A DNA stretch of 64,000 nt from an uncultured Lachnospiraceae bacterium (lineage in GTDB: Bacteria; Bacillota; Clostridia; Lachnospirales; Lachnospiraceae): positions 1 to 64,000 of the forward strand of contig CATNCF010000013.1 of the NCBI GenBank assembly GCA_950097145.1, read 5' to 3'. Below the pieces are notes generated by a model. The model ran no database searches and was not told the origin of the DNA. It worked only from the letters and a program-made list of their open reading frames with translations. This document shows positions 33,452-59,208 of the stretch, one piece after another. The translations under genes and the position numbers were made by a program. Position 1 is the stretch's first letter. Each line of letters opens with the position of its first letter.

Positions 33452-36400
33452 CTATTTTACTGTTACTTTGACGGTCTTGCTAACACCATTCTGCGTATAA
33501 ACATATATCTTGCAGGTTCCTTTTTTCTTGCCTTTGATGACTCCTTTCTTGGTGACTGTAGCTATCTTTTTATTAGTGCTTTCATAACAAATCACACGAT
33601 GCTTTCTTATTTTTTTCTTTTTATTTGCTTTTACCTCTGTGGCTTTCAGCTTAAATTTTTTTCCTTTTTTTATAGAAACTTTTGTCTTGTTTACTTTGAC
33701 GCTCTTGGCATTCGTATATTTGCCCCCGTTTGTGAACACATGGACTGTCTTGGCAATAGAAATTGTAATCTTCTTTCCTCCCACCAGTTTATATGCGCGC
33801 ACGATATAACGATAAGGGGTTCCTTTCTTCCTTTTTGTCTGGGTGAACGTTGTCTTGCTGTTCTTTTTCAGCGTCTTGATCAGCTTGGGTTTCTTCCCCT
33901 TCCCGCAGGGAGTTCCATATACTAAATAGCCGTCTGCGCCTTTCACTTTTTTCCACTTCAGCGTAATTTTCTTGTCTGTCACTTTTGCACATTTTACCTG
34001 GAGCTTTCCAAATACGGCTCCCTTCACATCATTCTCCGACTTCATTCCTGTAATGGATTTGTCTGTAACCAGCAGAACATCAGGCTCTATCCCAAGCTGT
34101 TTCGCCACTTTCTGAATCTTCTCTGCTTCTTTCTTGCTCACACCCAGCTTATCTGCAATTTCTTCAATCTGCTTCTGCTGCTCTGGGGGCAGAGCAGGTG
34201 TTTTGTTGAGTTCCGAATAAGCCTGTTCCGCATCTGTAAGCTTCTTTAGAATGTCTGGGGGAAACAGTTTCTTTTGCTGCTGTGTCAATAAGTTATAACT
34301 GCTGCGGGCATCTTTTATTTTCTTTCCACAAGCGTCTGTCTTCACTACTTTTCCAATCGCATTTACCTTATTTACAACGGCCAAAACGGCAGTCTCGTCT
34401 GCTTTGCTCACCAGACTGCGGAATATTTTTTCTGCATCTGTAAGCTTCTTTTTGGATGCTTCTGGCACCATATCCTTCTGAGCGCTGGTCAGGCTGTCGT
34501 ATATGTCCCTGGCAGCTTCAATTTTGCTTTTGGAATCCCAGTCAGCTTTTACAGGATCTGGTATGGCATCTATTTTTTGTTTTGCCTGGTCTGCCGCCGC
34601 CTGGTTCTTTCCTCCAGTAGCGTTGTCGTAAAGTTTCTCTGCATCCGTCAGCTTCTTCTTTTCTTCTGGCGTTATCAGTCCTTTTTGTTCCTCATTCAGC
34701 TTATCGTACGCTTCTCTCGCGTCCTCAATCAAATCTTTTTTGCTGGTCACATTTTCCGGTGTTGCTTCCCCTATTGCTTCGATCTTCTGCTTTACTTCTT
34801 CTGTTGCCAGCTTATCGTATTCCTCTTTGGCATTTTCCAGTTTCTCTCTGCTGGCTTCCGGCACCATGTCCTGCTGGCTTCCTGTCAGATTCTCATACGC
34901 GTCTTTTGCCTCTTCGATCTTCTGTTTGGTTTCTTCATCATTCTTGATCTGGTCTGGGATGGCGTCGATTTTCTCTGTCACCTTATCCGCTGCCGCCTGG
35001 TTGTGACCTCCGGTTGCATTATCGTAGAGTTTCTCTGCGTCGGTGAGCTTCTTCTTTTCTTCTGCTGTTATCAGTTCTTTTTGTTCCTCATTCAGCTTAT
35101 CGTACGCTTCCCTCGCGTCCTCAATCAAATCTTTTTTGCCGGTTACATTTTCCGGTGTTGCTTCCCCTATTGCTTCGATTTTCTGCTTTACTTCTTCTGT
35201 TGCCAGCTTATCGTATTCCTCTTTGGCATTTTCCAGTTTCTCTCTGCTGGCTTCCGGCACCATGTCCTGCTGGCTTCCTGTCAGATTCTCATATGCGTCT
35301 TTTGCCTCTTCGATCTTCTGTCCGGTTTCTTCATCATTCTTGATCTGATCTGGGATGGCGTCGATTTTCTCTGTCACCTTGTCCGCTGCCGCCTGGTTGT
35401 GCCCTCCGGTTGCATCATCGTAGAGTTTCTCTGCATCCGTCAGCTTCTTCTTTTCTTCTGGCGTTATCAGTCCTTTTTGTTCCTCATTCAGCTTATCATA
35501 CGCTTCTCTCGCGTCCTCAATCAAATCTTTTTTGCTGGTCACATTTTCCGGTGTTGCTTCCCCTATTGCTTCGATCTTCTGTTTTACTTCGTCAGCAGCA
35601 AGACGATCTGCTTCCACCAGCCTGTTATACTCTTTTTCAGCATCTTCCAGTTTCTTTTTGGTTTCTTCTGGCACCATGTCTTTCTGGGCAGGAGTCAAAG
35701 CGTCGTAAGCTTCTCTGGCTGCCTCTATTTTCTGTTTTGTCTCCTGATTATTCTGTACTGGATTAGGAATTTCATTTATTTTCTCTGATACCTGGGCTGC
35801 TGCCGCCTGGTTCCTGTCTTCTACAGCATCGTCATAAAGTTTCTCTGCATCCGTAAGTTTTTTCTTTTCTGCTGGCGTAATTTCCTCTTTTTCCTCATCT
35901 GTAAGCTTGTCATAAGCCTCTCTGGCTGCTTCTATAAGCTCCTTTTTACTCTCAGCATTCTCCAAAGTCACCTCCCCTATGGCGTTTATCTTATCCCGTA
36001 CATCTGATACGCCTGATACTAGAAGTTTTTCAATGGTTTTTGCAATTTCTACTGTGTCCGTTGTGCTTCCATCAGTAAGAACGATATTTGCGCTGATACT
36101 TCCTGCTGCGTCTGTGGTGGCTTCTATTTTGCTAAAATCATCCACACTTACTGTTACACCTGTAATTCCGGCATTTGTCAGCACTTTTTCTACTGTACTC
36201 TGGATATCCTCCTTTGACGTATCATTGGAAACGATAATTTTTTCTAACGCTTCCTGGAGCGCTTTTTTTGCTGCTGCTACCTTTTCCTCGTCTTCTGTAC
36301 CTGGCGTTTCCTTTTCCCCAGAAGTAATCCCATCCGGGTCTGTTCCTGCGCCTGTTCCCTGTCCGATTCCAGTAAGATCTTTGTTGACTGTTTCTGTTTT

Positions 36401-38359
36401 CTGATAATAGTCATCCTTTACGCCATTTGAGTTTTGGTTCTGGTTATTGCCGATAATGGCTCCTGGCTGGCTGCCTTCCTCTCCAGTCACATTTCCAGAA
36501 TTGACACAGCCCTGCACGGTTCCATTTTCCCCGTTTGTTCCTGTAATTCCACCCACCTGGTCTTTTCCAGTGACAGAAGCAGTATTTCTGTCATTATCCA
36601 AAGCGCCAAGATTCGTTCCTGCCACGCCTCCCACGCCAGTTCCGCTTCCTGTAACATCTCCTTTATTAATACATCCTGTAACCGTTCCCTCATTTTTGCC
36701 TACAATTCCCCCAACATTGTTCTGTCCGCTGACTGTTACATTGGACGTGCAGTCTTTTATGGTTCCTTCTGTTGTATTGGTTCCTGCAATCCCCCCAATG
36801 TTGTCTTTTCCGTTCAAGCTTCCCTCTACGGTAAGATTTTCGATAGTTCCGGCATTCACTCCAAACAGTCCCAAATTATCTGCAGATGGAGTGTTAATAT
36901 GCAGCTCCTTTATGATATGGCCATCTCCATTGAAGTTTCCTTTAAATGGATGTTCTTCTGTCCCAATAGGCGTCCACACTTCTTGTGCACTTCCGCCCAG
37001 GTCAATATCTTCCGTCAAATTAAAATAAACACCGGAGTAATCTGTTCCTTCATTTACCAGCCTGCCTAATTCCTGCAGATCTTCTTTGCTGGAAATCCAG
37101 TAAGGATCCTGCTCTGTGCCCTGCCCCCGGAAAGGACCTTCTTCCGCTTCACCTAACACAATTTGAACAACGTTATTGCTGTTTTTTATTGAATTCTCAG
37201 GATTATCACTCACAAAATATTTGCTGTAATCCCCGTTATTTGTACCTGTTATATCAACAATTTTGCTGTCTGCCTCAGATTCATCAACGGTAACGCCAAT
37301 ATCTGCGCCTTTGGTTAAACTATCTGTGATTGTTATTGTTTTACCGGCCATTAAATAAAGATTACTTAAAACCGTTTCATTATTCATCTCAACATTATCT
37401 TTGATCACTGGATTACCAGAAAACGTCATGGGATTTCTGCTCCAGGTGCTGTACAACACACCGGCCCCAAGTTTTGCTTTATTTCCGGTAATGGTTCCGC
37501 CATTTATAATAACAGTACCGCCGTTAAAAATTCCGCCGCCGCCTTCGGCGCTGTCGACGCGTTCAGACATTGCAATATTTCCGCTGATCGTTCCGCCATT
37601 CAGCGTAAAAGTTCCATCCACATTCACGCCGCCTCCGCTGTTTGCTGCGTCATTATCAGAAATTTCCCCCCCTGCCATAGTAAATGACGAGCCTGCGCTG
37701 ATATACACACCTCCTCCGGATCTGAGCTGGACAACTTTCCCTGCAGAATTGCCAGTAATTTTCCCGCCTGTCATAAGGAATGTGCCGCTGTCTCTTACAA
37801 CGACCCCGCCGCCATTCGCATTTGTAACAGCATTTTTACTGACCATTCCGCCATTCATTGTAAAATTTCCTCCGCTCACACATACTCCGCCTCCGCTTCC
37901 GTTTGTGTGATCATAAGTAGCAGTATTTTCCGTAATATTCCCGCCGTTCATGATAAACGATCCATTACTCTCGACTTTCACGCCGCCGCCCTTATCCGCT
38001 TCGCCGCCTGTTATTTTCCCCAAATCTTTCTCGTCATACAAATTTAGTTCTGCCCCGGACGGCACAACAATTACACCGTTCCGTTCTGTTGTTTGTCTGA
38101 TTGTATGACCGTTCAGGCAAAGATTTACCGTCCCTTGCGGAACACTCCACGCACTTCCTGATAACTCAACATCCGCTGAAAGATAGTAACTTCCTGCCGT
38201 CTTAGGCATGGAACTAGTATTATTCCATTCAGTGAACGTATCATGGCTATGGTTTTCTGCCTGTACGTCGAGACAATACCCGTCAAGGCTTCCACATGCC
38301 AGCAATATACTAAGCATTGCTGCTAGTAATCTGTTTCCTAAATGTTTTTTGTTTCCCAA
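33452..38359 (-). CDS. Giant secreted repeat protein A (1635 aa, TTG start)
   Basis: This is the smallest of three paralogous giant surface proteins. It has a signal peptide (about residues 1-34), right-handed beta-helix repeats (about 47-343; units such as GGGVCVSGGNFTMNGGMVS), GLUG repeats (about 450-620; DNIGGIAGTNTTEGTI), a linker, then about nine alternating helical modules of ~66 aa (about 787-1384). The C-terminus is lysine-rich (about 1387-1635) with a short helical segment (LGVSKKEAEKIQKVAKQLG), an Fn3-like domain (ITLKWKKVKGADGYLVYG) and an Ig-like/Big_2-like domain. There is no LPXTG motif. The start codon is TTG at 38359, eight bases after AAGGAGG; B and C use ATG. A likely role is adhesion or glycan binding, inferred from architecture only. 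It may attach noncovalently through the basic C-terminus. Confidence 0.85.
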   Translation of the reverse strand: MGNKKHLGNRLLAAMLSILLACGSLDGYCLDVQAENHSHDTFTEWNNTSSMPKTAGSYYLSADVELSGSAWSVPQGTVNLCLNGHTIRQTTERNGVIVVPSGAELNLYDEKDLGKITGGEADKGGGVKVESNGSFIMNGGNITENTATYDHTNGSGGGVCVSGGNFTMNGGMVSKNAVTNANGGGVVVRDSGTFLMTGGKITGNSAGKVVQLRSGGGVYISAGSSFTMAGGEISDNDAANSGGGVNVDGTFTLNGGTISGNIAMSERVDSAEGGGGIFNGGTVIINGGTITGNKAKLGAGVLYSTWSRNPMTFSGNPVIKDNVEMNNETVLSNLYLMAGKTITITDSLTKGADIGVTVDESEADSKIVDITGTNNGDYSKYFVSDNPENSIKNSNNVVQIVLGEAEEGPFRGQGTEQDPYWISSKEDLQELGRLVNEGTDYSGVYFNLTEDIDLGGSAQEVWTPIGTEEHPFKGNFNGDGHIIKELHINTPSADNLGLFGVNAGTIENLTVEGSLNGKDNIGGIAGTNTTEGTIKDCTSNVTVSGQNNVGGIVGKNEGTVTGCINKGDVTGSGTGVGGVAGTNLGALDNDRNTASVTGKDQVGGITGTNGENGTVQGCVNSGNVTGEEGSQPGAIIGNNQNQNSNGVKDDYYQKTETVNKDLTGIGQGTGAGTDPDGITSGEKETPGTEDEEKVAAAKKALQEALEKIIVSNDTSKEDIQSTVEKVLTNAGITGVTVSVDDFSKIEATTDAAGSISANIVLTDGSTTDTVEIAKTIEKLLVSGVSDVRDKINAIGEVTLENAESKKELIEAAREAYDKLTDEEKEEITPAEKKKLTDAEKLYDDAVEDRNQAAAAQVSEKINEIPNPVQNNQETKQKIEAAREAYDALTPAQKDMVPEETKKKLEDAEKEYNRLVEADRLAADEVKQKIEAIGEATPENVTSKKDLIEDAREAYDKLNEEQKGLITPEEKKKLTDAEKLYDDATGGHNQAAADKVTEKIDAIPDQIKNDEETGQKIEEAKDAYENLTGSQQDMVPEASREKLENAKEEYDKLATEEVKQKIEAIGEATPENVTGKKDLIEDAREAYDKLNEEQKELITAEEKKKLTDAEKLYDNATGGHNQAAADKVTEKIDAIPDQIKNDEETKQKIEEAKDAYENLTGSQQDMVPEASREKLENAKEEYDKLATEEVKQKIEAIGEATPENVTSKKDLIEDAREAYDKLNEEQKGLITPEEKKKLTDAEKLYDNATGGKNQAAADQAKQKIDAIPDPVKADWDSKSKIEAARDIYDSLTSAQKDMVPEASKKKLTDAEKIFRSLVSKADETAVLAVVNKVNAIGKVVKTDACGKKIKDARSSYNLLTQQQKKLFPPDILKKLTDAEQAYSELNKTPALPPEQQKQIEEIADKLGVSKKEAEKIQKVAKQLGIEPDVLLVTDKSITGMKSENDVKGAVFGKLQVKCAKVTDKKITLKWKKVKGADGYLVYGTPCGKGKKPKLIKTLKKNSKTTFTQTKRKKGTPYRYIVRAYKLVGGKKITISIAKTVHVFTNGGKYTNAKSVKVNKTKVSIKKGKKFKLKATEVKANKKKKIRKHRVICYESTNKKIATVTKKGVIKGKKKGTCKIYVYTQNGVSKTVKVTVK
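34200..36003 (-). repeat. Tandem helical-module array of giant A (about 9 units)
   Basis: Two alternating module types of ~66 codons form a ~396-bp super-repeat. Type 1 contains IEAIGEATPENV...DAREAYDKL...LTDAEKLYD; type 2 contains KIDAIPDQIKNDEETK...AYENLTGSQQDMVP. I count five type-1 and four type-2 modules. Adjacent copies are nearly identical at the DNA level (34577-35600), a substrate for unequal recombination. Confidence 0.85.
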
Positions 38360-38438
38360 TTTTTAATCCTCCTTTACTTTTCCTGTATTCTCAGTTCTCT
38401 TTGTGCATGATTTTGCGAGAAGATTTTTGCCAGTTGAG

Positions 38439-38485
38439 CACAAATTTATGAGGCGCACATGGATTGCACATGGATGAAATTTGTG
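38439..38485 (-). promoter_or_regulatory. Hairpin in the leader of giant A
   Basis: CACAAATTT (38439-38447) and AAATTTGTG (38477-38485) form a 9-bp stem; the loop holds two copies of GCACATGGAT. It occurs only upstream of giant A, whose gap between the conserved element and the start codon (about 225 bases) is much longer than in B and C. Confidence 0.45.
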
Positions 38486-38584
38486 TTTATTTGGTGGAAA
38501 ATCAGCCTTAAAAGCAGGTATAGGGAGACTCCGAGTATACATTTTTGTGCTCAAAATATAACATAAGAAAAACCGATTAAACGA

Positions 38585-38630
38585 TTTTAGGTACACTTCG
38601 TATCTTTCAGGGTATCCTTTGTCTTAAAAT
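38585..38630 (-). promoter_or_regulatory. Conserved upstream element, copy A
   Basis: On the minus strand this segment reads AAGACAAAGGATACC, CTGAAAGATACGAAG, TGTACCTAAAAT. The same ~45-bp sequence precedes giants B and C. It contains GATAC-n7-GATAC followed by GTAC, suggesting an activator-binding site upstream of the promoter. Confidence 0.6.
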
Positions 38631-38664
38631 ATCGTTTCTAACATTAATAAAAACCATGCCAGCC

Positions 38665-38702
38665 AAAAAAAGACAAACCCCTCTTACTGAGAGATTTGTC
38701 CT
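38665..38702 (-). terminator. Terminator of the enolase pseudogene
   Basis: On the minus strand GACAAATCTCT and AGAGGGGTTTGTC arms are followed by TTTTTTT. Homologous hairpins follow the intact enolase gene and the LicD gene. Confidence 0.8.
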
Positions 38703-38755: not shown

Positions 38756-39303
<548 letters not shown>

Positions 39304-39427
39304 AACAAACTTCTTTCGCACATCATAGCACAAGTTTCCTGTTTAAAGTATTTACAAAAATCCGGCAATTATGCATTCTTCTATGGTGTAATCCTGTATT
39401 TTTTCAAAATATTCCAGATAATACAGG
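39304..39427 (-). repeat. Duplicated giant-to-enolase intergenic region (copy 1)
   Basis: This 124-base stretch is nearly identical to 50400-50523 (a few differences, such as TTTTTTCAAAAT versus TTTTTTGAAAAT). It contains an extended -10-like TGCTATGAT and the AAGGAGT-type ribosome binding site region of the enolase copy. The identity continues into the 3' ends of giants B and C and the 5' end of the enolase copies. Confidence 0.85.
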
Positions 39428-42400
39428 TTATTTTACTGTTACCTTGACCGTTTTATAGATGCCGTTCTGAGTATATACATATATTTTGCAGGTTCCTTTT
39501 TTCTTTCCTTTGATGACGCCTCCTTTCTTCGTTACCGTGGCGATCTTATTATTCGTGCTTTCGTAACAGACCACCCGGTGGTGCCTTATTTTTTTCTTCT
39601 TATCGGTTTTTAGCTCTTTGCCTTTCAGCTTAAACTTCTTCCCCTTTTTCACGGTTACTTTTGCCTTGTTCACTTTTACGCTCTTAGGATTGGTGTATTT
39701 TCCCCCTGTTGTGAAAATGTGCACGGTCTTTGCAACTGCTATTGTAAGCTTCTTCTTCCCCACCTGTTTGTAGGCGCGTACAATGTAGCGGTATGGGGTT
39801 CCTTTCTTTAATTTCTTCACGGTCAGGCTGGTCATGCTGCTCTTTTTCAGTGTCTTTATCAGCTTGGGCTTCCTTCCCTTTCCACAGCGGGTGCCGTATA
39901 CCAGGTAGCCGTCTGCTCCTTTTACTTTCTTCCACTTCAGCGTGAATTTCTTGCTGGACACTTTTGTGCCTTTTACCTGGAGTTTTCCAAATGCCGCTCC
40001 CGTCACATCATCTTCGGTCTTCATTCCTGTGATGGTTTTGTCTGTAACCAGCAGCGTCTCCGGATCGACACCCAGTTTTTCCGCCACTTTCTGGATTTCT
40101 TCCGCCTCTTTCTTGCTGACACCCAGTTTTTCTGCAATCTCTTCTATCTGCTTCTGCTGTTCTGGTGGCAGGGCAGGCGTTTTGGTCAGATCTGCATATT
40201 TCTTCTCCGCGTCCGCAAGCTTCTTTAAAATGGCTGGCGGGAACAGCTTCTTCTGCTGTGCGGTCATTAAGTTATAGCTGCTGCGGGCGTCCTTGATTTT
40301 CTTGCCGCAGGCGTCTGTCTTAACCACTGTTCCGATGGCGTTTATCTTATTGATTACTGCCTGGACAGCGTCCTCGTCTGCTTTGCTTACCAGGCTGCGG
40401 TATGTTTTCTCCGCATCCTCCAGTTTCTTTTTGGATGCTTCCGGCACCATGTCTTTCTGGGTGCTGGTCAGCTTGTCATACGCTTTCCGTGCTTCTTCAA
40501 TCTTGGTCTTGGAGTTCCAGTCTCCCGCCACAGGATTGGGGATGGCGTCGATTTTCTGTTTTGCCTGGTCTGCTGCGGCCTGATTCTTTCCTCCAGTGGC
40601 AGTGTCGTAAATCTTCTCTGCGTCCGTCAGCTTCTTTTTCTCGGCTGGAGTGATAAGCTTCTTCTGCTCCTCGTCCAGTGCGTCATAAGCTGTCCTGGCC
40701 TCTTCAATCAACTGTTTTTTGCTGGCCGCATTTTCTGGAGTTATCTCACCGATAGCGTCAATCTTCTCTTTTACCTTGTCTGCCGCCTGGTTCTGGCTTC
40801 CAGCGGCGTCTTCATAGATTTTCTCTGCATCTGTGAGTTTCTTTACGTCGGATGGATCGATCAGGGCTTTTTGCTCGCTGGTCAGCTTGTCATAAGCTTT
40901 TCGGGCCTCTTCAATCAGATCCTTTTTACTAATCACATTTTCCGGCGTTACTTCTCCGATGGCCTCAATCTTCTGCTTTACTTCATCCGTTACCAGCTTA
41001 TTGTAATCTTTTTCTGCATATTCCAGTTTCTTTTTCGTCTCTTCCGGCACCATATCTTTCTGGGTGGTAGTCAGGCTGTCATACGCATCTTTGGCGTCTT
41101 CCAGTTTTTCTTTTGTCTCCTGGTCATTCTTCACCGGGCTTGGAATGGCGTTGATCTTGTCTTTCACCTGGTCTGCCGCCGCCTGATTCTTCCCTCCAGT
41201 GGCGTCGTCGTAGAGTTTCTCTGCATCCGTCAGTTTCTTCTTCTCTGGCGGAGTAATCAGCTTTTTCTGGTCTTCCGTCAATGCGTCGTAAGCATTCCGG
41301 GCATCCTCGATGAGGTCTTTTTTGCCGACCACATTTTCCGGCGTCACTTCGCCGATGGCGTTGATTTTCTTCCTCACTTCATCGGCTGCAAGCTTGTTAT
41401 AAGCCTCTTCCGATTCTTCCAGTTTCTTCCGGCTGTCTTCCGGCACCATGTCTTTCTGGGTTCCTGTCAGGTTGTCGTATGCTTCCTTTGCCTCTTCGAT
41501 CTTCTGTTTCGTTTCTTCATCATTCTGAATCTGATCTGGGATGGCGTCGATTTTTTCGGTCACCTTGTCTGCTGCCGCCTGGTTCTTCCCTCCAGTGGCG
41601 TCGTCATAGAGTTTTTCTGCGTCCGTCAGCTTTTTCTTTTCTTCCGGATCAATCAGATCTTTCTGATCCTGATTCAGCTTATCATAGGCTTCCCGGGCGT
41701 CCTCGATGAGATCTTTTTTGCTGACTACGTTTTCCGGCGTTACTTCACCGATGGCGTCGATCTTCTCTTTCACTTCATCCGTTACCAGATTATTGTAGTC
41801 TTTTTCTGCATGTTCTAATTTCTTTTTCGTCTCTTCCGGCACCATGTCTTTCTGGGTGCTGGTCAGGCTGTCATACGCATCTTTGGCGTCTTCCAGTTTT
41901 TCTTTTGTCTCCTGATCATTCTTCACTGGGCTTGGGATGGCGTCGATCTTGTCTTTCGCACGGTCTGCCGCTGCCTGGTTGTGCCCTCCGGCAGCGTTAT
42001 CGTAGAGTTTCTCTGCGTCCGTGAGTTTCTTCTTATCCAGCGGAGTAATCAGCTTTTTCTGCTCTTCCGTCAATGCGTCGTAAGCTTCACGGGCATCCTG
42101 GATGAGGTCTTTTTTGCCCACCACATTTTCCGGCGTTACTTCACCGATGGCATGGATCTTCTTCCTCACTTCATCGGCTGCAAGCTTGTTATAAGCCTCT
42201 TCCGATTCTTCCAGTTTCTTCCGGCTGTCTTCCGGCACCATGTCTTTCTGGGTTCCCGTCAGATTGTCATAGGCTTCCTTTGCCTCTTCAATCTTCTGTT
42301 TTGTTTCTTCGTCATTCCTGATCTGATCCGGGATAGCGTCGATTTTTTCAGTCACTTTGTCCGCTGCCGCCTGGTTGTGCCCTCCGGTGGCTTCGTCGTA

Positions 42401-45400
42401 AATTTTCTCTGCGTCCGTCAGTTTCTTCTTATCCTCTGGCTCAATCAACTCTTTCTGATCATCGGTGAGCTTGTCATAGGTTTCTCGGGCATCCTCAATG
42501 AGATCTTTTTTGCTGATCACATTTTCCGGCGTCACTTCACCAATGGCGTCAATCTTATTTTTTACTTCCTCCGTTACCAGCTTTTTATAGACTTCCTCGG
42601 CTTCTTGCAGTTTCTTCTGGCTGTCCTCTGGCACCATGTCTTTCTGGGTGGTCGTCAGGCTGTCATACGCATCCCGGGCTTCTTCCAATTTTTCCTTTGT
42701 CTCCTGGTCGTTCTTTACCGGGTCTGGAATGGCGTCGATCTTATCTTTCGCACGATCCGCCGCCGCCTGATTGTGCCCTCCGGTGGCTGTGTCGTAGATT
42801 TTCTCCGCATCCGTCAGCTTCTTCTTCTCTTCCGGTGTAATCATCTCTTTCTGACGCTCCGTAAGCGCGTCATAGGCTTCACGGGCATCCTCGATGAGAT
42901 CTTTTTTGTCGATGACATTTTCTGGCGTCACATCTCCAATGGCTTCAATTTTTGTCTTTACCTTTTCTACTGCAAGCCTGTCGGCTTCCGCCAGTTTCTC
43001 ATATTCTTTCTCCGCCTGTTCCAGCTTTTTCCTGCTGCTCTCCGGTACCATGTCTTTCTGGACGCTGGTCAGCTTGTCATAGGCTTCACGGGCATCCTCG
43101 ATCTTCTGTCTGGTGTCTTCATTGTTCTGCACCGGATCTGGGATGGCGTCGATTTTTCTCTTAACCTCATCCGCTGCTGCCTGGCTGCGGCCTCCTGTGG
43201 CTTCGTCATAAACTTTCTCCGCATCCGTCAGCTTCTTCTTTTCCTCCGGCGTAACCAGTTCTTTCTGCTCTTCTGTCAGCTTATCATAAGCATCACGGGC
43301 TTCTTCTATGAGATCCTTTTTGCTGGCAGCGTTTTCTGCGGTGGTCTCCCCAATGGCGTCGATCTTCTCCATCACTTCTGCGGCGGCGAGCCTGTCGTAA
43401 GATTTTTCCGCCTGTTCCAGCTTCTTCTTGCTGCTTTCCGGCACCATGTCTTTCTGGGTTCCCGTAAGATTCTCATAAGCTTCCCGGGCTTCCTCGATCT
43501 TCGCCTTGCATGTCTCGTTCTTCTCCACAGGATCCGGGATGGCGTCAATCTTCTCTTTCACACGGTCTGCCGCTTTCTGGTCTTTACTGCCCTGTGTCTG
43601 GTCATAAAGCTTTTCTGCATCCGTCAGTTTGTCCTTGTCCTCCGGCGGCACCAGTTCTTTCTGGTCTTCCGTCAGTTTCTCGTAGGCGTCGCGGGCGTCC
43701 TCAATCTCCTGCTTTTTCTCTGTGACAGTTTCAGGCGTCACGGTTCCGATAGCGTCAATCTTTTCCGACACCTTATCTGCCTGTATCTTGTCATAGGCAT
43801 CTTTCGCATCTTCCAGTTTCTTCCGGTCTTCTTCCGGCACCATGTCTTTCTGGGTTCCTGTGAGATTCTCATAGGCATCCTCCGCATCCTCAATCTTCTG
43901 CCTGGTCTCCTCGTTGTCCTGTACCGGGGTGGGGATGGCGTCGATTTTTTCGCATACCTTGTCTGCTGCTTTCTGATCTGATCCGCCTGCCGCCTGGTCA
44001 TACTCTTTCTCCGCATCCGTCAGTTTTTTCTTGTCCTCTTCTGTAAGCAGTTCTTTCTGCTGGTCCGTCAGGCTGTCATAAGCGTCTCTGGCGTCCTCAA
44101 TCTCCTGCTTTTTCTCTGTGACGGTTCCAGGCGTCACGGTTCCGATGGCGTCGATTTTCTCTTTGGCGTTCTCTGCCGCCAGCCTGTCATAGGCTGCTTC
44201 TGCTTCCGTAAGCTTCTGTTTTTTCTCTTCCGGAACCAGGCTTTTCTGGAAATCCGTCAAATCGTCATAGGCTTCCCGGGCCTCTTCAATCTTCTGGGCG
44301 CATTTCCAATCGTACTGTACCGGGGAAGGGATTGCGTCGATTTTCGCTGACGCCCGGTCTGCCGCCGCCTGGTTGCTTCCTCCGGTAGCCTGGTCGTAAG
44401 CCGCTTCTGCGTCGGTAAGCTTTTTTAATTCCTCCGGCTCAATCAGCTTTTTCTGGTCTGGATCCAGGCTGTTATAAGCTTTTCTCGCCTCCTCGATCAG
44501 GGGAAGCTTTTCCTCTGCATTTGCCTGGTTGACCGTTCCAATCTTATTAATTTTCTCTATCACTGCATCTGCCGCCAGCTTATCATAAGCCGCTTCTGCA
44601 TCCGTGAGTTTCTTCAAAGAATCCTCCGGCACCAGTTTCTTCTGAGCGCTGGTGAGGGCATCGTAAGCTTTTCTGGCTTCTTCGATTTTCTCTCGGCAGT
44701 CTGTATCGTAGGTTACCGGTTCAGGGATCGCGTTGATCTTTTCCACTGCTTGATCCACCGCGCCCTGGTTGTCTCCTCCCGTGGCCTGTTTGTAGAGCTC
44801 TTCTGCGTCTGTGAGCTTTTTCAATACATCCTCCGGAATTTGCTTTTTCTGTTCCTCGTCCAGCTCCTCATAGGCTTCCCGGGCTCTTTCAATAAGTTCA
44901 GCTTTGTCAAGGACATTCTCCAGCGTCACTTTGCCGAGCGCATGAATCAGGCTCTTTACCGCTTCTGCCTGCGCCTGCGGATCTATCTTGAAAAACAATC
45001 CGTTATTACGCTCTGCTTCCATCATATACCCTGGCTGATCGCTGATGAAACGCACAGTGCTGCCATTCAGCCAGGAATTACTTGCATTTCCAAGTTTCAG
45101 AGGAGCGTCCTTTTTCACCTTCCACAGCCTGTCTGGATCTATGGTAATGCCAATCTTCGCATCTTCATTTAAAGTACCGGTAGACGCAAGACCTTTTGAT
45201 AAATAGACATTATTGACAGTTTCTTGATTGTTTTCATCCACTACGCTGTTCTCATATATTTTCGGCGAACCGGATATTTGCAGATCACAAGTGGTGGCAT
45301 AAATCCCTGCTCCATTCTCCGACGCCTTATTTCCTGTAATTTCAGCGTCGGCTATTTCCAGCATGGATGTGCCTCTGAAACCTGGAACATCTCCGGCATA

Positions 45401-49079: not shown

Positions 49080-50523
<1,444 letters not shown>

Positions 50524-53500
50524 TTATTTTACTGTTACCTTGACCGTTTTATATATGCCGTTCTGAGTATATACATATATTTTGCAGGTTCCTTTTTTCT
50601 TTCCTTTGATGACTCCTCCTTTCTTTGTTACCGTAGCGATCTTATTGTTTGTGCTCTCATAGCAGACCACACGATGCTGCCTTATTTTTTTCTTCTTATT
50701 GACTTTTACCTCTTTACCTTTCAGCTTAAACTTCTTTCCTTTTTTCACGGTTACTTTCGCTTTGTTGACTTTCACGCTCTTTGCATTGGTATATTTTCCA
50801 CCTGTTGTAAAGATATGCACCGTCTTTGCAACTGCAATTGTGATCTTCTTTTTCCCTACCTGTTTGTAGGCGCGCACAATGTAACGATAAGGAGTTCCTT
50901 TCTTTAATTTCTTCACCGTAAGGCTGGTCTGGCTGCTCTTTTTCAGTGTCTTTAGCAGCTTGGGCTTCCTTCCCTTTCCGCAGCGGGTTCCGTATACTAG
51001 GTAGCCGTCTGCCCCTTTTAATTTCTTCCACTTCAGCGTAAATTTCTTATCTGACACTTTTGTCCCTTTTACTTGCAGTTTGCCGTATGCGGCTCCCTTC
51101 ACATCTTCTTCCGACTTCATTCCTGTGATGGTCTTGTCTGTAACCAACAGTGTCTCTGGATCTACTCCCAGCTTTTCCGCCACTTTCTGGATCTCTTCCG
51201 CTTCTTTCTTGCTGACACCCAGTTTGTCTGCAATTTCTTCTATCTGCTTCTGTTTTTCCGGAGGAAGGGACGGTGCTTTGTTCAGGTCTGCATATGTCTT
51301 CTCTGCGTCCGCCAGCTTCTTTAAAATAGCTGGCGGGAACAGTTTCTTCTGCTGTACGGTCAATAAGTTATAGCTGCTTCGGGCGTCTTTGATTTTCTTG
51401 CCGCAAGCGTCCGTCTTAACCACCTTTCCGATGGCGTTTATCTTATTGAGCACTGTCTGGACAGCGTCCTCATCTGCTTTGCTTACCAGGCTGCGGTATG
51501 TTTTCTCCGCATCCTCCAGCTTCTTTTTGGATACTTCCGGTACCATGTCTTTCTGGGCGCTGGTTAAATTGTCATACGCTTTTCTGGCTTCTTCGATCTT
51601 AGTCTTAACGTCCCAGTCTCCCGTTACAGGATTGGGGATGGCGTCGATTTTTTGTTTTGCCTGGTCTGCTGCCGCCTGGTTTTTGCCTCCAGTGGCAGTG
51701 TCGTAAATCTTCTCTGCGTCCGTCAGCTTCTTTTTCTCGGATGGGCTGATAAGCTTCTTCTGCCCCTCATCCAGTGCATCATAAGCTGTTCTAGCGTCTT
51801 CAATCAACTGTTTTTTGCCGGCCGCATTTTCCGGAATGATCTCGCCGATAGCGTCGATTTTCTCTTTCACCCTGTTTACCGCCTGATCCTGGTCTGCGAT
51901 GACGTCGTTGTAGATTTTCTCTGCATCCGTCAGTTTCTTTCTATCAGACGAATTTATCAAGTCTTTCTGAGCCTCCGTCAGCTTATCATAGGCTTCTCTT
52001 GCTTCCTCTATCAAATCTTTTTTGCTGATTATATTTTCCGGCGTCACTTCCCCGATAGCTTCAATCTTCTGTTTCACTTCATCCGTTACCAGTCTGTTGT
52101 ATTCCTTCTCCGCTTCTTCCAGTTTTTTCTTGCTGTCTTCCGGCACCATGTCTTTCTGGGTTCCCGTCAAATTATCATAAGCGTCCTCCGCATCTTCGAT
52201 CTTTTGTTTGGTTTCTTCATCATTCTTGATCTGATCCGGAATGGCGTCGATTTTTTCTGTCACCTTGTCCGCCGCCGCCTGGTTGTGCCCTCCTGTTGCG
52301 TCATCATAGATTTTCTCTGCATCTGTCAGTTTCTTCTTTTCTTCGGGCTCAATCAATTTTTTCTGGTCTTCTGTCAGCTTGTCGTAGGCTTCCCTCGCGT
52401 CCTCTATCAAATCTTTTTTACTGATTACATTTTCTGGTGTTACTTCCCCTATGGCTTCAATCTTCTTTTGTACATCATCCGTCACCAGCTTCTTGTAGGC
52501 TTCTTCAGCCTCTTCCAGTTTTTTCCTGCTGTCTTCCGGCACCATGTCTTTCTGGATTCCCGTAAGTTTGTCATACGCGTCCTTTGCATCTTCGATCTTC
52601 TGTTTGGTTTCTTCATCATTCTTGATCTGATCCGGGATGGCGTCGATTTTTTCTGTCACCTTGTCCGCCGCCGCCTGGTTGTGCCCTCCCGTTGCGTCAT
52701 CATAGATTTTCTCTGCATCCGTCAGTTTCTTCTTATCCGATGGTTCGATCAAATCTTTCTGAGCTTTACTCAGCTCGTCGTAGGCTTCCCGGGCTTCCTC
52801 AATGAGATCTTTCTTACTGATCACATTTTCCGGCGTTACTTCACCGATGGCTTCAATCTTCTTTCTTACCTCCTCGGCAGCAAGTTTGTTATATGCCTCT
52901 TCCGCTTCTTCCAGTTTTTTCTTGCTGTCTTCCGGCACCATGTCTTTCTGGGTTCCCGTAAGTTTGTCATACGCGTCCTTTGCATCTTCGATCTTCTGCT
53001 TGGTTTCTTCATCATTCTTGATCTGAGCCGGGATGGCGTCAATTTTTTCTGTCACCTTGTCCGCCGCCGCCTGGTTGTGCCCTCCCGTTGCGTCATCATA
53101 GATTTTCTCTGCATCCGTCAGTTTCTTCTTATCCGATGGTTCGATCAAATTTTTCTGAGCTTTACTCAGCTCGTCGTAGGCTTCCCGGGCTTCCTCGATG
53201 AGTTCTTTTTTACTGATCACATTTTCCGGCGTTACTTCACCAATCGCATTGATTTTCTTCTTTACTTCCTCTGCTGCAAGCCTGTCAGCTTCCGTCAGTT
53301 TATCATACTCTTTTTCCGCCTGTTCCAATTTTTTCCTGCTGCTCTCCGGCACCATGTCTTTCTGGGCGCTGGTCAGCTTGTCATAGGCTTCTCGGGCCTC
53401 CTCAATCTTCTGTCTCGTATCTTCATTGTTCTGCACCGGATCCGGGATGGCGTCGATTTTTTTCTGCACCTGATCCGCTGCTTCCTGGCTGTGGCCTCCT

Positions 53501-56500
53501 GTGGCTTCGTCATAGGTCTTCTCTGCATCCGTCAATTTCTTCTTTTCTTCCGGCGCAATCAGCTCTTTCTGATCTTCTGTCAGCTTGTCATAAGCCTCTC
53601 GGGCTTCCTCAATCAAATCTTTCTTGTTGACAGCGTTTTCTATGTTCACTTCCCCCAGGGCGTCAATCTTCTCCATCACTTCCGCCGCCGCAAGCCTGTC
53701 GTATGATTTTTCCGCTTGTTCCAGCTTCTTTTTGCTGCTTTCTGGCACCATATCTTTCTGGGTTCCTGTCAGCTTGTCATAAGCCTCTCGAGCCTCTTCG
53801 ATTTTCGCCTTGCATGTCTCGTTCTTCTCCACAGGATCCGGAATGGCGTCAATCTTGTCTTTCACAAGGTCTGCTGCCTGCTGGTCTTTACCGCCCTGTG
53901 TCTGATCATAAAGCTTTTCTGCATCCGTCAGTTTCTTCTTGTCCTCCGGAGTCACCAGTTCTTTCTGGTCTTCCGTCAGTTTCTCGTAAGCGTCACGGGC
54001 GTCCTCAATCTCCTGCTTCTTATCTGTGACAGTTTCAGGCGTCACGGATCCAATGGCGTCAATTTTTTCAGATACCTTATCGGCCTGCATCTTGTCATAC
54101 GCATCTTTCGCGTCTTCCAGTTTCTTCCTATCCTCTTCCGGCACCATATCTTTCTGGGTTCCCGTCAGATTATCATAGGCGTCCTTTGCATCCTCAATCT
54201 TCTGCCCAGCGTCCTCATCGTCCTGTATCGGGGAGGGGATAGCGTCAATTTTTTCAGATACTTTATCCGCCGCTTTCTGGTCTGATCCCCCTGCTGCCTG
54301 ATCGTACTCCTTCTCTGCATCCGTCAGTTTCTTCTTGTCTTCTTCCGTAAGCAGTTCTTTCTGCTGGTCAGTTAAAGCGTCATAGGCTTCTCTGGCTTCC
54401 TCAATCTCCTGCTTTTTCTCTGTGACAGTTCCAGGCGTCACAGATCCGATGGCGTCAATCTTCTCTTTGGCCTTCTCTGCCGCCAGTCTGTCATAGGATG
54501 CTTCTGCATCCGTCAGCTTCTGTTTTTTCTCTTCCGAAACCAGGCTTTTCTGGAAATCCGTCAAATTGTCATAGGCTTCCCGGGCCTCTTCGATCTTCTG
54601 CGCACATTTCCAATCGTACTGTACTGGGGAAGGAATCGCGTCGATTTTTGCTGACGCCCGGTCCGCCTTCTCCTGATTCTTTCCTCCTGCGGCCTGGTCG
54701 TAAGCTTTTTCTGCGTCGGTAAGCTTTTTTAATTCCTCTGGCGCAATCAGCTTTTTCTGGTCTGGATCCAGGCTGTTATATGCATTTCTCGCCGCCTCAA
54801 TCAAGGAAAGCTTTTCTTCTGCATTTGCCTGGTTTACGGTTCCAATGGCATTGATTTTCTCTATCACTGCATCTGCCGCCAGCCTATCATATGCCGCTTC
54901 TGCATCCGTCAGTTTCTGTAAGGAAGCGTCCTTTACCAGCTTCTTCTGGGCGCTGGTTAGAGAATCATAAGTTTTTCTGGCTTCTTCAATCTTCTCTCTG
55001 CAGTCTGTATCGTAAGTTACCGGATTGGGGATTGCGTCGATCTTTTCCATTGCTTGATCTGCCGCGCTTTGGTTGTCTCTATCCGCCTGCTTACAGAGTT
55101 CTTCTGCGTCCGTGAGTTTTTTCAATACATCCTCCGGGATCAGCTTCTTTGCGTCATCTTCCAGGGCGTCATAAGCGTTCCGGGCGCTTTCAATGGCTTC
55201 TGTTTTGTCAAGGACGTTCTCCAGCGTCACCTGGCCGATGGCTTCTATCATATTCTTTACTGCCTCCGCTTCCTCCGCAGGATCTTCTACAACATAATAC
55301 AGCTCACTAATCTGACCGCTATCCGTCCACTGAAGCTTGAACTGATACCCCGGCAGATCGCTGATGAATGTGTCAGTACAGTTTTTCCACCAGGAACCAT
55401 GACCGAATCCAAGTTTCAGGGGATGGCTCTTGTCCACCTGTTCCAGCCTTTCCTGATCTACGGTAATACCAATCCGGGCGTCTTTATTTAATGTACCTTC
55501 GCTATCGTTTAAATTGGTGGACTGAAGTTCCTTGAACAGATAAACATTACTGGCGCGTTCCTTGTTATTTTCATCCACTACAAAATTTTCATATATTCGC
55601 GGCGAACCTGCTACTTGCAGCGGGCATATGCCTATATAGAGTCCCGCCCCATTCTCCGACGCCCGGTTTCCCGTAATTTCAGCGTCCGCTACCACTACCT
55701 TTAACGCGCCTGTATAGGAATCATCTCCAGAAAATATTCCGCCTCCCCGCTTTGCAACGTTATCAATAATTTTTCCCCCATATATACATAGCTCTGGCGC
55801 GCTCCGTGCGCAAAAGATCCCTCCGCCGACTTCCGTTGCCTGGTTCCTGGCAATCGTACCTCCGTACATGACGAAACTCTTTTCGTTGTACACGCCTGCT
55901 CCTCTTACCGCCCAATTTCCAATAATTGTACCGCTGTACATTTTTATCTTGTTGCCATCCGGCAGCATATTCTTCAATCCGGCGCCTTCTCCGTCCGGCG
56001 CATTAGCAACATTGCCCACAATATTTATATGATATATCGACAGATTGCTATCATTCTTCACTGCACAGCCATCCGTCCCAAAAGCTCCTGTGATACAGCC
56101 TCCTGTAAGTTCTTCTGTGCCATGCTCCTCACTTAGGCGCCACGCCTGGTTATCCAAAGCAGAAAATTTATGCACTGTACTGGAACAATCTGTCAATACC
56201 AATTCTTTCTTATTCGTTATAATGGGGCCCGGCTGTTGCCCCTTAATAATATGGCCGTTCAAGCACAAATTTATAGATTGCTGTGGGAACCACGCCCCGG
56301 AAACATCTGTCGTCAGACAATAATAACCTGCTTCTTTGGGAAACGCATACTCCTCGCTCCATGGCTCCCACACATGAAGATTTGTATCCGGATGATTCTT
56401 ATGTTCCCCATCTGCAGAACATTCTGTTTCCCCGCATTCTGTATGGACATGCATCGTATCTGTACTGGCAATTCCTTCCCCATCTTCTTGGGTACCGCCC

Positions 56501-59208
56501 ACTCCCCAAAGGCCTGCATTTATGTCCGTGGTTTTTCTATAGGAACATTCTGAGATAATTCCTTTATTTTCTCCGGCAACTGCACCCACTCTAGTCCCGG
56601 TTCCCGTAATGTTTTCTGTACTGACACATCCACTGATGACGCCGGTCTCACTATTAGAGCCCGCGATTCCTCCCACATAATCTTTTCCTCCGGTCTTTAC
56701 CAGGCTGGTACAGTTTAAAATCTGCCCTTCATTTTTTCCGGCGATTCCTCCTGCATAATCCATGTTCCCTGAGGAAATCTCCCCTGACAGATTAAGATTT
56801 TGGATGATTCCTTTGTTATGGGCAAAGAACCCTGTGCCATTTGCAGTTTGAGCGGCAATTTTTATGCCAATTGTATGTCCCATTCCGTCAAAATACCCTG
56901 CAAATGGAATAATCTCGTCTTCTGATACCTTCCCGATTACATCTTCTATCTTCTCTGCGCCTGTACATACATCTGTTTGAAGTTGGAAATATTTTCCTTT
57001 TAAACTGTCCTTTTTCGTACGCATATACTCAGCAAGCAAACCTATCTCCGAGTCCTGCACCAATCGATACGGCTCGTCTTTGGTTCCGGAGCCGTAAATA
57101 CTCTTCGAATGAAACCAGGCCTTTGTCTCTGTATCTTCCAACAGCTTCACCGCAGCGTAATTCAGTTTGCCTCTCTGTTCCTCTGTCAGTGCGTCATACG
57201 CTGTTCTTGCCTCCTGAACAAGCTGATCGATCTTTGATGTCGCTTTACCCGCCGAATCAATTTTCTGTTTCACCGCTGCCAGGGCTTCATCCTCCGCTAT
57301 CAACTCCAGTGAATTATCACCTTTTTTAGAAATCGTATATACCGGATCATCACTCTTAAAACAAGCGCTGCAATCACTAGAAGCGCTTCTTGTAAAAGTT
57401 CTTGGAGAGTAAGCTGAAATTGCGGAAGCTGTAACGCCAATCTCTGACCCTTCCGCAATTCCACCTTCCGCTATCATTATTGTCTTATAGGTATCGTCAG
57501 TAAGATAAGCTAAATAAAGATTATTGGGAAACTCATGCACCATATCATTTTGATTGTCCTGAGTCTGTATATAGTTTTCCTTTATCGTTCCTCCGCCAAT
57601 CTCAAGAGTACAGCTGCTAGCGTATTTCAGTCCTGAGTACCAAAATACACCGCCCCCATTTTCAGCCTTATTTTGAGTGATCGTTCCTCCTTCTATAGTA
57701 AAGATTCCACTGCCTTCCTTTCCCAGGTATACGCCGCCGCCGTCTTTCGCCGTATTTTGGGAGATTGTTCCTCCTTTTATGTAACCACCTGTGGCATAAT
57801 GGCAGATACCGCCTCCTCGGATTGACGCATGGTTGTTTGCAATTTCACCGCCCATGATTTCAAAACGGGTTCCCCTATTAAAAATACCGCCTCCGGTCCT
57901 CCCGCTGTTTTCAGAAATTTTACCGTCATACATCAAAAACATGCCACGATTCAGGACGCCGCCACATGTATTATTGGCGCCTCCATTTTTCGTGATTTCG
58001 CCGCCTTTCATCTCAAATGTACCTCCGGTACTTCCGTCCCCTACGCATACACAGGCGCCGTACTGAATTTCAAAGAACTCTTTCTCACCCCATCCTCCTT
58101 CTTCTGGAACTACCATGCCCATATCCATATAGTTTCCAATTATTTTACCACTGTACATGAAAAGCTGAGCCGCATTCTTAACAAATACTGCGCTGCCTCC
58201 ATATCCTATACTCTTCCTCTGCTCAGTGTCATAAGTTTTTCCACTATTTTTGTTGCCCACAATGTTGATATGGTATATCTCTAATTTTGCCTTTTCTTCG
58301 AGCAGAATGGCAGGATACGGTTTAGTACCGTTTTCACCGTTGCGCGCACCGGTAATACAGCCGCTGGTAAGTGTTTCTGTACCATTTTTTTCATCCAATG
58401 TCCACAAACCTGTTTCTGGATCCACAGAAAATTTATGCTCCTGGTTCGTCGTGCAGTCTGTCAGCACAGAGTCGCCGGCGTTAATGGTTATGGTAGGTCC
58501 CTCTTGTCTTCCTGGCCATTCTACATTTATCACATGGCCGTTGAGACAGAGATGCATACCTTTCGTATTGTGCAATAATTGAGATGGTTGGGTTAATGTA
58601 ACATCCTCTGTCAGATAATAATATCCGTTTTCCTCAATGCCAGTTTGCGTTTTACCATCCCAGGGCTGCCAAACTTGTTCCTGATGAGTTCCATGGCTGC
58701 AATTTTCCTCTCCGCAGACTTTATGTTTGTGTTCTGGCTGCTCCCCTGAAGTATCCGTACTTGACGGCTGCTCTGCAAGGGTGCGCATTTTATTTTTTAC
58801 AGGCTTTGACTCAGAATCCTCCTCCCGGGGCTCTCTGGCTGTTCCGGCTTGCTCCCCAGGCTCTCCGGCTGTTTCGTCCATTATACCTGTTCCATCCTTC
58901 CCAGGCTCTCCGGCTGTTTCGTCTGTACGGCCTTTCCCGTTCTCCAATTCTGACTCTGACAAATCAGAAGAACTCTCTTCCCCGTCAGGATTCTCATTTG
59001 TTTCGTCCTGGATCTCTCCCTCTCTGGAATCTTGGGCAGGCGCTCCTTCCATTCCTTGAGCGCCACCGGATTCCGCCTCCTGGGCAGGCTGACCGGACGT
59101 TCCTTCTGCCTTTACATAATAGGGGCAGTCCCCCAGTGTCCCCGCAAATAGCAGCACACTGAGAATTGCCGCTGTGATACGCTTCGCTAAGTTCCTCTTT
59201 GTTGCCAT
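50524..59208 (-). CDS. Giant secreted repeat protein C (2894 aa)
   Basis: This paralog of giant B has the same layout: signal peptide, acidic/proline-rich linker (about 40-150), Cys/His motif (HKHKVCGEENC), first beta-helix (about 217-550), a lone helical module (about 640-693), GLUG repeats (about 813-883), a second Cys/His motif (HVHTECGETEC, about 917), a second beta-helix (about 960-1217), about 20 alternating helical modules (about 1313-2650), and a lysine-rich Fn3 plus Ig-like C-terminus. AAGGAGGAG precedes the ATG. The C-terminal 250 residues are almost identical to those of B, whereas the beta-helix regions are more diverged, which suggests conserved anchoring and variable ligand surfaces. 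No LPXTG motif. Confidence 0.88.
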   Translation of the reverse strand: MATKRNLAKRITAAILSVLLFAGTLGDCPYYVKAEGTSGQPAQEAESGGAQGMEGAPAQDSREGEIQDETNENPDGEESSSDLSESELENGKGRTDETAGEPGKDGTGIMDETAGEPGEQAGTAREPREEDSESKPVKNKMRTLAEQPSSTDTSGEQPEHKHKVCGEENCSHGTHQEQVWQPWDGKTQTGIEENGYYYLTEDVTLTQPSQLLHNTKGMHLCLNGHVINVEWPGRQEGPTITINAGDSVLTDCTTNQEHKFSVDPETGLWTLDEKNGTETLTSGCITGARNGENGTKPYPAILLEEKAKLEIYHINIVGNKNSGKTYDTEQRKSIGYGGSAVFVKNAAQLFMYSGKIIGNYMDMGMVVPEEGGWGEKEFFEIQYGACVCVGDGSTGGTFEMKGGEITKNGGANNTCGGVLNRGMFLMYDGKISENSGRTGGGIFNRGTRFEIMGGEIANNHASIRGGGICHYATGGYIKGGTISQNTAKDGGGVYLGKEGSGIFTIEGGTITQNKAENGGGVFWYSGLKYASSCTLEIGGGTIKENYIQTQDNQNDMVHEFPNNLYLAYLTDDTYKTIMIAEGGIAEGSEIGVTASAISAYSPRTFTRSASSDCSACFKSDDPVYTISKKGDNSLELIAEDEALAAVKQKIDSAGKATSKIDQLVQEARTAYDALTEEQRGKLNYAAVKLLEDTETKAWFHSKSIYGSGTKDEPYRLVQDSEIGLLAEYMRTKKDSLKGKYFQLQTDVCTGAEKIEDVIGKVSEDEIIPFAGYFDGMGHTIGIKIAAQTANGTGFFAHNKGIIQNLNLSGEISSGNMDYAGGIAGKNEGQILNCTSLVKTGGKDYVGGIAGSNSETGVISGCVSTENITGTGTRVGAVAGENKGIISECSYRKTTDINAGLWGVGGTQEDGEGIASTDTMHVHTECGETECSADGEHKNHPDTNLHVWEPWSEEYAFPKEAGYYCLTTDVSGAWFPQQSINLCLNGHIIKGQQPGPIITNKKELVLTDCSSTVHKFSALDNQAWRLSEEHGTEELTGGCITGAFGTDGCAVKNDSNLSIYHINIVGNVANAPDGEGAGLKNMLPDGNKIKMYSGTIIGNWAVRGAGVYNEKSFVMYGGTIARNQATEVGGGIFCARSAPELCIYGGKIIDNVAKRGGGIFSGDDSYTGALKVVVADAEITGNRASENGAGLYIGICPLQVAGSPRIYENFVVDENNKERASNVYLFKELQSTNLNDSEGTLNKDARIGITVDQERLEQVDKSHPLKLGFGHGSWWKNCTDTFISDLPGYQFKLQWTDSGQISELYYVVEDPAEEAEAVKNMIEAIGQVTLENVLDKTEAIESARNAYDALEDDAKKLIPEDVLKKLTDAEELCKQADRDNQSAADQAMEKIDAIPNPVTYDTDCREKIEEARKTYDSLTSAQKKLVKDASLQKLTDAEAAYDRLAADAVIEKINAIGTVNQANAEEKLSLIEAARNAYNSLDPDQKKLIAPEELKKLTDAEKAYDQAAGGKNQEKADRASAKIDAIPSPVQYDWKCAQKIEEAREAYDNLTDFQKSLVSEEKKQKLTDAEASYDRLAAEKAKEKIDAIGSVTPGTVTEKKQEIEEAREAYDALTDQQKELLTEEDKKKLTDAEKEYDQAAGGSDQKAADKVSEKIDAIPSPIQDDEDAGQKIEDAKDAYDNLTGTQKDMVPEEDRKKLEDAKDAYDKMQADKVSEKIDAIGSVTPETVTDKKQEIEDARDAYEKLTEDQKELVTPEDKKKLTDAEKLYDQTQGGKDQQAADLVKDKIDAIPDPVEKNETCKAKIEEAREAYDKLTGTQKDMVPESSKKKLEQAEKSYDRLAAAEVMEKIDALGEVNIENAVNKKDLIEEAREAYDKLTEDQKELIAPEEKKKLTDAEKTYDEATGGHSQEAADQVQKKIDAIPDPVQNNEDTRQKIEEAREAYDKLTSAQKDMVPESSRKKLEQAEKEYDKLTEADRLAAEEVKKKINAIGEVTPENVISKKELIEEAREAYDELSKAQKNLIEPSDKKKLTDAEKIYDDATGGHNQAAADKVTEKIDAIPAQIKNDEETKQKIEDAKDAYDKLTGTQKDMVPEDSKKKLEEAEEAYNKLAAEEVRKKIEAIGEVTPENVISKKDLIEEAREAYDELSKAQKDLIEPSDKKKLTDAEKIYDDATGGHNQAAADKVTEKIDAIPDQIKNDEETKQKIEDAKDAYDKLTGIQKDMVPEDSRKKLEEAEEAYKKLVTDDVQKKIEAIGEVTPENVISKKDLIEDAREAYDKLTEDQKKLIEPEEKKKLTDAEKIYDDATGGHNQAAADKVTEKIDAIPDQIKNDEETKQKIEDAEDAYDNLTGTQKDMVPEDSKKKLEEAEKEYNRLVTDEVKQKIEAIGEVTPENIISKKDLIEEAREAYDKLTEAQKDLINSSDRKKLTDAEKIYNDVIADQDQAVNRVKEKIDAIGEIIPENAAGKKQLIEDARTAYDALDEGQKKLISPSEKKKLTDAEKIYDTATGGKNQAAADQAKQKIDAIPNPVTGDWDVKTKIEEARKAYDNLTSAQKDMVPEVSKKKLEDAEKTYRSLVSKADEDAVQTVLNKINAIGKVVKTDACGKKIKDARSSYNLLTVQQKKLFPPAILKKLADAEKTYADLNKAPSLPPEKQKQIEEIADKLGVSKKEAEEIQKVAEKLGVDPETLLVTDKTITGMKSEEDVKGAAYGKLQVKGTKVSDKKFTLKWKKLKGADGYLVYGTRCGKGRKPKLLKTLKKSSQTSLTVKKLKKGTPYRYIVRAYKQVGKKKITIAVAKTVHIFTTGGKYTNAKSVKVNKAKVTVKKGKKFKLKGKEVKVNKKKKIRQHRVVCYESTNNKIATVTKKGGVIKGKKKGTCKIYVYTQNGIYKTVKVTVK
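51270..55265 (-). repeat. Tandem helical-module array of giant C (about 20 units)
   Basis: I count 11 modules of the AIGEVTPENV type and 9 of the IDAIPDQIKND type with the same ~396-bp super-repeat as in A and B. As in B, two first-type modules are adjacent near the C-terminal end (around NRVKEKIDAIGEIIPEN). Pairs at 52050-53450 are nearly identical to each other. Confidence 0.85.

Follow-up and report, generated by a model that had tools for sequence, protein, structure and literature searches.

Giant proteins with beta-helix-type heads, helical stalks, and a common basic tail as candidate surface adhesins of an uncultured Lachnospiraceae bacterium

A stretch of 64,000 nucleotides from an uncultured Lachnospiraceae bacterium (positions 1 to 64,000 of contig CATNCF010000013.1, assembly GCA_950097145.1, which comprises 80 contigs and is 82.8% complete), in the following called the window, contains three giant paralogous genes, A, B, and C (Table 1). 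A fourth paralogue, D (1763 aa; L009:5192-10483), is located on a different contig of the same genome. We consider it probable that all four encode exported, surface-retained giant adhesins of the periscope type, which are held non-covalently and carry exchangeable heads. The N-terminal beta-helix/GLUG head would be the ligand-binding end, an array of paired three-helix modules would act as a stiff rod that sets the distance of the head from the cell, and a very basic tail of an Fn3 and a Big_2 domain would keep the otherwise acidic protein at the wall, which is negatively charged, with no covalent anchor. Family members would exchange heads and stalk/tails, with the repeats as likely crossover sites. 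The assignment to the Lachnospiraceae fits, since the closest named relatives are metagenome-assembled genomes (MAGs) labelled uncultured Roseburia.

From the N- to the C-terminus, A, B, and C consist of a signal-peptide-like start (assigned by eye, without a predictor), a beta-helix head, a GLUG region, the module array, a short helical segment, Fn3, and Big_2. In B and C, an acidic linker comes after the start, and the GLUG part is followed by a lone weak helical module and another beta-helix region; A has a single beta-helix region. An earlier note on this DNA had proposed the paralogy and the shared beta-helix, GLUG, helical array, and basic Fn3/Ig-like end, which were borne out by Pfam, profile hidden Markov models (HMMs), alignment, and fold models. 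In Pfam, Glug scored over the cut-off in A and under it in B and C, Fn3 over it in B and C and under it in A, and Big_2 over it in A and B and under it in C. An NCBIfam scan gave nothing useful, nor did PDB sequence searches with the heads or with B, the latter yielding only weak Fn3 matches.

The heads and the stalk/tails of these proteins have separate histories, brought about by gene conversion between paralogues or by head transfer. In the sister species G015, the proteins A15 (L030:664-5961) and D15 (L031:7048-12021) bear the heads of A and D, with amino acid identities of 73% (A/A15) and 84% (D/D15). The tails of A15 and D15 are alike (79%; proportion of synonymous differences, pS, 0.51), and those of A15 versus A and D15 versus D share 66% (pS 0.75) and 60% (pS 0.84), respectively. 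In the tail tree, A15+D15 and A+(B+C) both received 100% bootstrap support, and an approximately unbiased (AU) test on the tails rejected the pairs A+A15 and D+D15, which had been named from the heads. The D tail lies outside the A, B, and C group, and within-genome tail likeness refers to A-C here and to A15 and D15 in G015, with D excluded. Between D and D15, DNA identity amounts to 83-92% before residue 668 and 53-68% after residue 848, a fall that lies inside the stalk. The break position was picked after inspection of the profile, and the pooled break test excluded the fourfold windows at D residues 668-847 (22 of 47 sites differ) and A residues 668-787 as well as the last short window of A; the A/A15 test by itself is weak (127/244 versus 128/199, p = 0.012). 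These data suggest that heads and stalk/tails recombined, once with a break within the stalk, and such recombination would let stalks and tails that are similar within one genome carry different heads. The pS between the D and D15 heads is 0.30, compared with 0.55-0.68 for enolase, purB, TerD, and LicD between the same genomes, and D and D15 have no common gene context beyond ~110 bases upstream of the start. It appears that the head of D was transferred recently.

The heads of B and C share 54-62% of their amino acids versus 86-93% in stalk and tail, and the heads of D and A, whose stalks and tails are of one kind, are 12-33% identical in windows. An AlphaFold model of the C head (residues 150-1310, three-row alignment) had a mean predicted local distance difference test score (pLDDT) of 63, with better values in the two beta-helix cores and mostly <50 in the N-terminal caps. 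The best fold matches of its beta-helix were pertactin, phi29 gp12, PL6 alginate lyases, UpaB, and Ag43, and that of its GLUG part was 3n6z. On this model the C head resembles pertactin-type beta-helices with middling confidence; the beta-helix heads claimed earlier for all three proteins are supported by a predicted model for C and by alignment with C for A and B. The lyases in the fold list raise the alternative that the heads belong to the pectate-lyase-like superfamily and act as polysaccharide lyases or hydrolases, which would make the proteins tethered enzymes. We regard this as distinctly unlikely: the pertactin complex ranks first, though with lyases within 2 Z units, no lyase or hydrolase Pfam family was found for the A, B, and C heads even at an E-value of 10, and the weak enzyme-named matches sit instead in the stalk (Alpha-mann_mid, Hydrolase_6) and the tail (HL_N-beta). 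A Cys/His-rich motif (HxHxxCxxxxC...H), a possible metal-binding cap, occurs just ahead of each beta-helix in B (~48320-48390 and 46030-46155) and at the equivalent sites in C, in a low-confidence part of the model.

In the stalk, modules of two types alternate: G modules of 70 aa (..AIG..) and P modules of 62 aa (..AIP..). The alternation agrees with the earlier note, whose module size of ~66 aa turned out to be the mean of both types. Its counts of 9, 24, and 20 modules in A, B, and C were reproduced by profile HMMs built from the modules, which also found one isolated weak module each in B (in the head) and C, and 15 modules in D. A G-G irregularity near the array end is common to B and C. 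Structure prediction of a module pair, as proposed in the earlier note, was obtained from an AlphaFold model of A residues 1130-1635 (78 alignment rows; P, G, P, and the last, or cap, module) with a mean pLDDT of 96. The model supports a helical stalk for A, with three helices predicted per module and, at the first P-to-G (62-to-70 aa) junction, one unbroken helix (model residues 39-67, A residues 1168-1196). By analogy with Embp, at ~6-7 nm per module pair, the rods would measure roughly 26-31 nm in A, 70-84 nm in B, and 58-70 nm in C. The top Foldseek match of this stalk-and-tail model, SbsC (E = 1.9e-9 over 605 columns, TM-score only 0.12-0.16), would suit structural coat or biofilm-matrix proteins, which are S-layer-like and have no specific receptor. 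Such a role appears doubtful to us, as the heads of B and C differ strongly on stalk/tails of 86-93% identity, which would be expected of a part that binds and not of one that builds a lattice, and no SLH domain was found in A, B, and C or in the genome assembly at its 82.8% completeness. Some Pfam matches in the stalk were set aside. DUF4041 (A, B, C) and Alpha-mann_mid (B) exceeded curated cut-offs as whole-protein sums with no single stretch at E 0.1, and were dismissed because they are sums of weak matches across many repeats; DnaB_bind, BORCS6, and DUF7750 scored below the cut-offs.

Some module pairs within an array share 91-98% of their DNA sequence (A3/A5, A4/A6, B15/B19, C12/C14), and B3 and B4 have no within-array match listed above ~64-67%. 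Orthologues differ by two modules (A 9 versus A15 11; D 15 versus D15 13). A-like C-terminal pieces from other gut MAGs, with their 5' ends cut by contig ends, contain two modules (L040) or one (L041 and L042), and in L041 hardly anything separates the A-like GLUG region from the cap module; L043, a relative of full length, contains nine modules. The variation in stalk length claimed earlier thus holds between species, each represented by one genome. A short-read collapse of the arrays may have occurred but is not forced, given longest exact repeats of 113, 98, and 109 bases within A, B, and C. The specific module pair is rare in the family, with matches in four of 250 family genomes at E 1e-15 (own genome included, G015 outside that draw; three of the four weak), and looser relatives of the module are present elsewhere in the genus.

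The tail comprises ~195 aa with an isoelectric point (pI) of ~10.5 on otherwise acidic proteins, and the fold model of the A tail confirmed both Fn3 and Big_2. Among the best 80 of 243 loci, which were retrieved with a pattern that lay within the tail and required no terminal place, the tail stops ≤11 residues from the stop codon in 79, with a median pI of 10.3; the sole exception (L062) has an acidic extension after the tail, and L101 has six extra residues. In a control with a tail HMM, which is partly circular as the HMM was built from terminal tails, the tail was terminal in 110 of 111 matches >45 bits and in 3 of 20 at ≤30 bits. At E 1e-20 it was detected in 30 of the 250 family genomes (own included; ≤11 candidates scored per genome). 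Pfam annotated 12 of 21 other tail-bearing proteins, as GH43 (four), BspA-type leucine-rich repeat (LRR) proteins (four, one with a lipase), and GH16, BNR/ricin lectin, DUF6273, and Cthe_2159 (one each); the remaining nine had only Big_2/Fn3, weak matches, or nothing. No LPXTG-like motif was found in A, B, C, and D, and an LPSTG string at residue 780 of A15 is internal and no terminal sorting signal. In a Butyrivibrio genome paper (PMC5716241), large polysaccharidases are reported to have cell-wall-binding repeats as their predicted C-terminal anchor and one lysozyme to bear a Big2 pair; the consulted parts contain no description of the present tail.

A wider reading, which seems possible to us rather than probable, is that gut Clostridia generally use the tail as a sortase-independent module for surface retention, always in last position, and that the stalk is a recombination platform for head exchange between paralogues and species, whereby a single genome retains a house style of stalk and tail while its binding heads are swapped. 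If true, this would be a modular display system for gut Clostridia, in which the head is exchanged, the stalk length altered, and the tail retained, and many secreted glycosidases, lectins, and LRR proteins could owe their retention at the cell to the tail. Two observations concern the tail itself. Two Cys and two His are mostly conserved in 86 aligned tails (A numbering: Cys1485 in 78, His1540 in 81, His1587 in 78, and Cys1616 in 67, the last hand-summed), and a metal site or a disulfide is possible; a strict disulfide was weighed and set aside, as one Cys is sometimes lost without the other. A GH43 protein with the same tail (L060:5318-10627) has a FIVAR match of 29.1 bits (cut-off 29.2), which suggests that a FIVAR-like part and the basic tail can meet in one protein.

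Along the direction of transcription, the gene order is LicD gene, C, enolase, B, enolase pseudogene, A, TerD-domain gene, rnr (RNB domain), smpB, and tmRNA gene. The three giant genes of 4.9, 9.4, and 8.7 kb in the earlier note are real, but they are not directly adjacent, because an enolase gene and an enolase pseudogene sit between them; the reported 40% of the window is the span of the cluster, and the genes alone amount to 23,031 bases or 36%. The enolase gene and pseudogene, paralogue D, the occurrence of the same tail on enzymes, and the head/tail discordance were absent from that note. In blastn, the pseudogene matches the intact enolase at nt 1-174 (98.3% identity) and nt 947-1348 (96.0%), and it contains stop codons in all three frames. 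A, B, and C are preceded by sequences with 72-80% likeness, those after C and after B are 98% identical, and 94 bases separate the end of C from the listed enolase open reading frame (ORF) that follows. In all five stretches around enolase read from relatives (G014 L154, G015 L152, G012 L155, G004 L158, and G018 L157; the G018 contig starts immediately ahead of enolase, and in G015 enolase is followed by other genes), no giant was found; in G014, LicD, enolase, and rnr follow each other with gaps of ~45 and ~670 bases. The sixth genome searched, G005, yielded a short locus only and is outside these five. As these five relatives have no giants beside enolase, a [giant + enolase] block was probably duplicated in tandem in the present lineage, which would have grown the cluster, and the spare enolase would then have decayed. 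The pseudogene is probably younger than the split from G015, given that the enolases of the two genomes share 85.8% identity versus 96-98% between pseudogene and intact gene. A recent pseudogene inside the cluster could also be taken to mean that the giants are functionless by-products of amplification around enolase. We find this scarcely credible, as all three reading frames are uninterrupted over 4.9-9.4 kb and preceded by good Shine-Dalgarno sequences, and B and C diverged under purifying selection (ratio of non-synonymous to synonymous divergence, dN/dS, 0.07-0.45).

Several points weigh against our interpretation. The dS between B and C (0.40-1.02) exceeds the divergence of enolase and pseudogene, so that B and C were distinct before block copying or the enolase ends were homogenized. 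The C head model has only middling confidence. The shared helix was read from the secondary structure of one AlphaFold model at one P-G junction, without superposition, and the G-to-P and P-to-cap junctions of that model are broken helices. The fold-search lists contained no Ebh, FIVAR, or GA structure, but they were filled by beta domains and are uninformative on the stalk. Wall binding by the tail is inferred from charge and C-terminal position, and a fully secreted, matrix-building protein would fit as well.

Two plus-strand ORFs opposite the stalks, of 666 aa (41981-43981) and 684 aa (51652-53706), were set aside as genes; judged by composition only, they are probably mirror images of repeat codons. 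The tmRNA gene (28504-28848, minus strand; Rfam) adjoins smpB and rnr downstream of the cluster.

Table 1 Positions of the giant genes, their parts, and the enolase copies in the window
Feature	Positions	Strand	Remarks
Gene A	33452..38359	-	1635 aa, TTG start
A beta-helix-type head (residues ~40-400)	37160..38242	-	Alignment with B and C heads; fold model only of C
A GLUG region (residues ~410-690)	36290..37132	-	Pfam Glug above cut-off; limits by eye
A stalk, 9 helical modules, GPGPGPGPG	34211..35992	-	Module HMMs; AlphaFold of residues 1130-1635
A basic Fn3 + Big_2 tail (residues 1440-1635)	33455..34042	-	Net +54, pI 10.5
Enolase pseudogene between B and A	38758..39333	-	Enolase nt 1-174 joined to nt 947-1348, intervening 772 nt gone; blastn and stops
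Gene B	39428..48865	-	3145 aa
B acidic linker (residues 36-155)	48401..48760	-	Net -33
B first beta-helix region	47006..48388	-	Alignment with C; limits by eye
B GLUG-like region	46151..46798	-	Below Pfam cut-off; alignment with C
B second beta-helix region	44966..46153	-	Alignment with C; limits by eye
B stalk, 24 modules	40184..44947	-	Module HMMs
B basic Fn3 + Big_2 tail	39431..40015	-	Net +51
Enolase gene, intact, between C and B	49080..50429	-	Pfam Enolase_N + Enolase_C
Gene C	50524..59208	-	2894 aa
C first beta-helix region	57289..58731	-	Alignment and fold model
C GLUG-like region	56434..57096	-	Alignment and fold model
C second beta-helix region	55264..56436	-	Alignment and fold model
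C stalk, 20 modules	51286..55248	-	Module HMMs
C basic Fn3 + Big_2 tail	50527..51111	-	Net +52; Big_2 below cut-off

Similar designs are known. No description of the whole architecture was found in the literature, in a search limited to open-licence papers that is no proof of absence. The FG-repeats of staphylococcal Ebh/Embp, as described in the consulted parts of PMC7587433, belong to giant surface proteins, as the present modules probably do; they also occur in many copies, and their 125-aa repeat (132 aa here) consists of two alternating three-helix bundles with a long helix through the junction. In contrast to Ebh/Embp, the stalk described here is acidic and lies beneath a separate beta-helix head, and the C-terminal end differs; a Pfam scan at E 10, in which HMMER filters discard most matches >0.1, listed no FIVAR or GA family, and no Ebh/Embp chain was among five PDB matches at E 1. 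Pertactin-type autotransporter adhesins share the beta-helix head, as predicted for C, but have a C-terminal barrel where the proteins analyzed here end in Fn3 + Big_2. The S-layer protein SbsC, which topped the Foldseek list, matched across the helical and Ig-like parts, although at very low TM-scores and 12% identity. Periscope Proteins, according to the consulted parts of PMC9704523, combine an N-terminal functional domain with a stalk of >50-residue tandem repeats in variable copy number, whose length changes by proposed recombination, and the modules here are likewise >50 residues long (62 and 70 aa, in 9, 24, and 20 copies). High DNA identity between repeats, a further trait of Periscope Proteins, is seen here in some module pairs, with many modules well under 90%. 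The giants differ from Periscope Proteins in the basic Fn3 + Big_2 tail, which takes the place of a C-terminal covalent anchor motif. The combination and the proposed mode of cell retention look new, and new points are the discordance of heads and tails, the probable duplication of the enolase block, and the spread of the tail.
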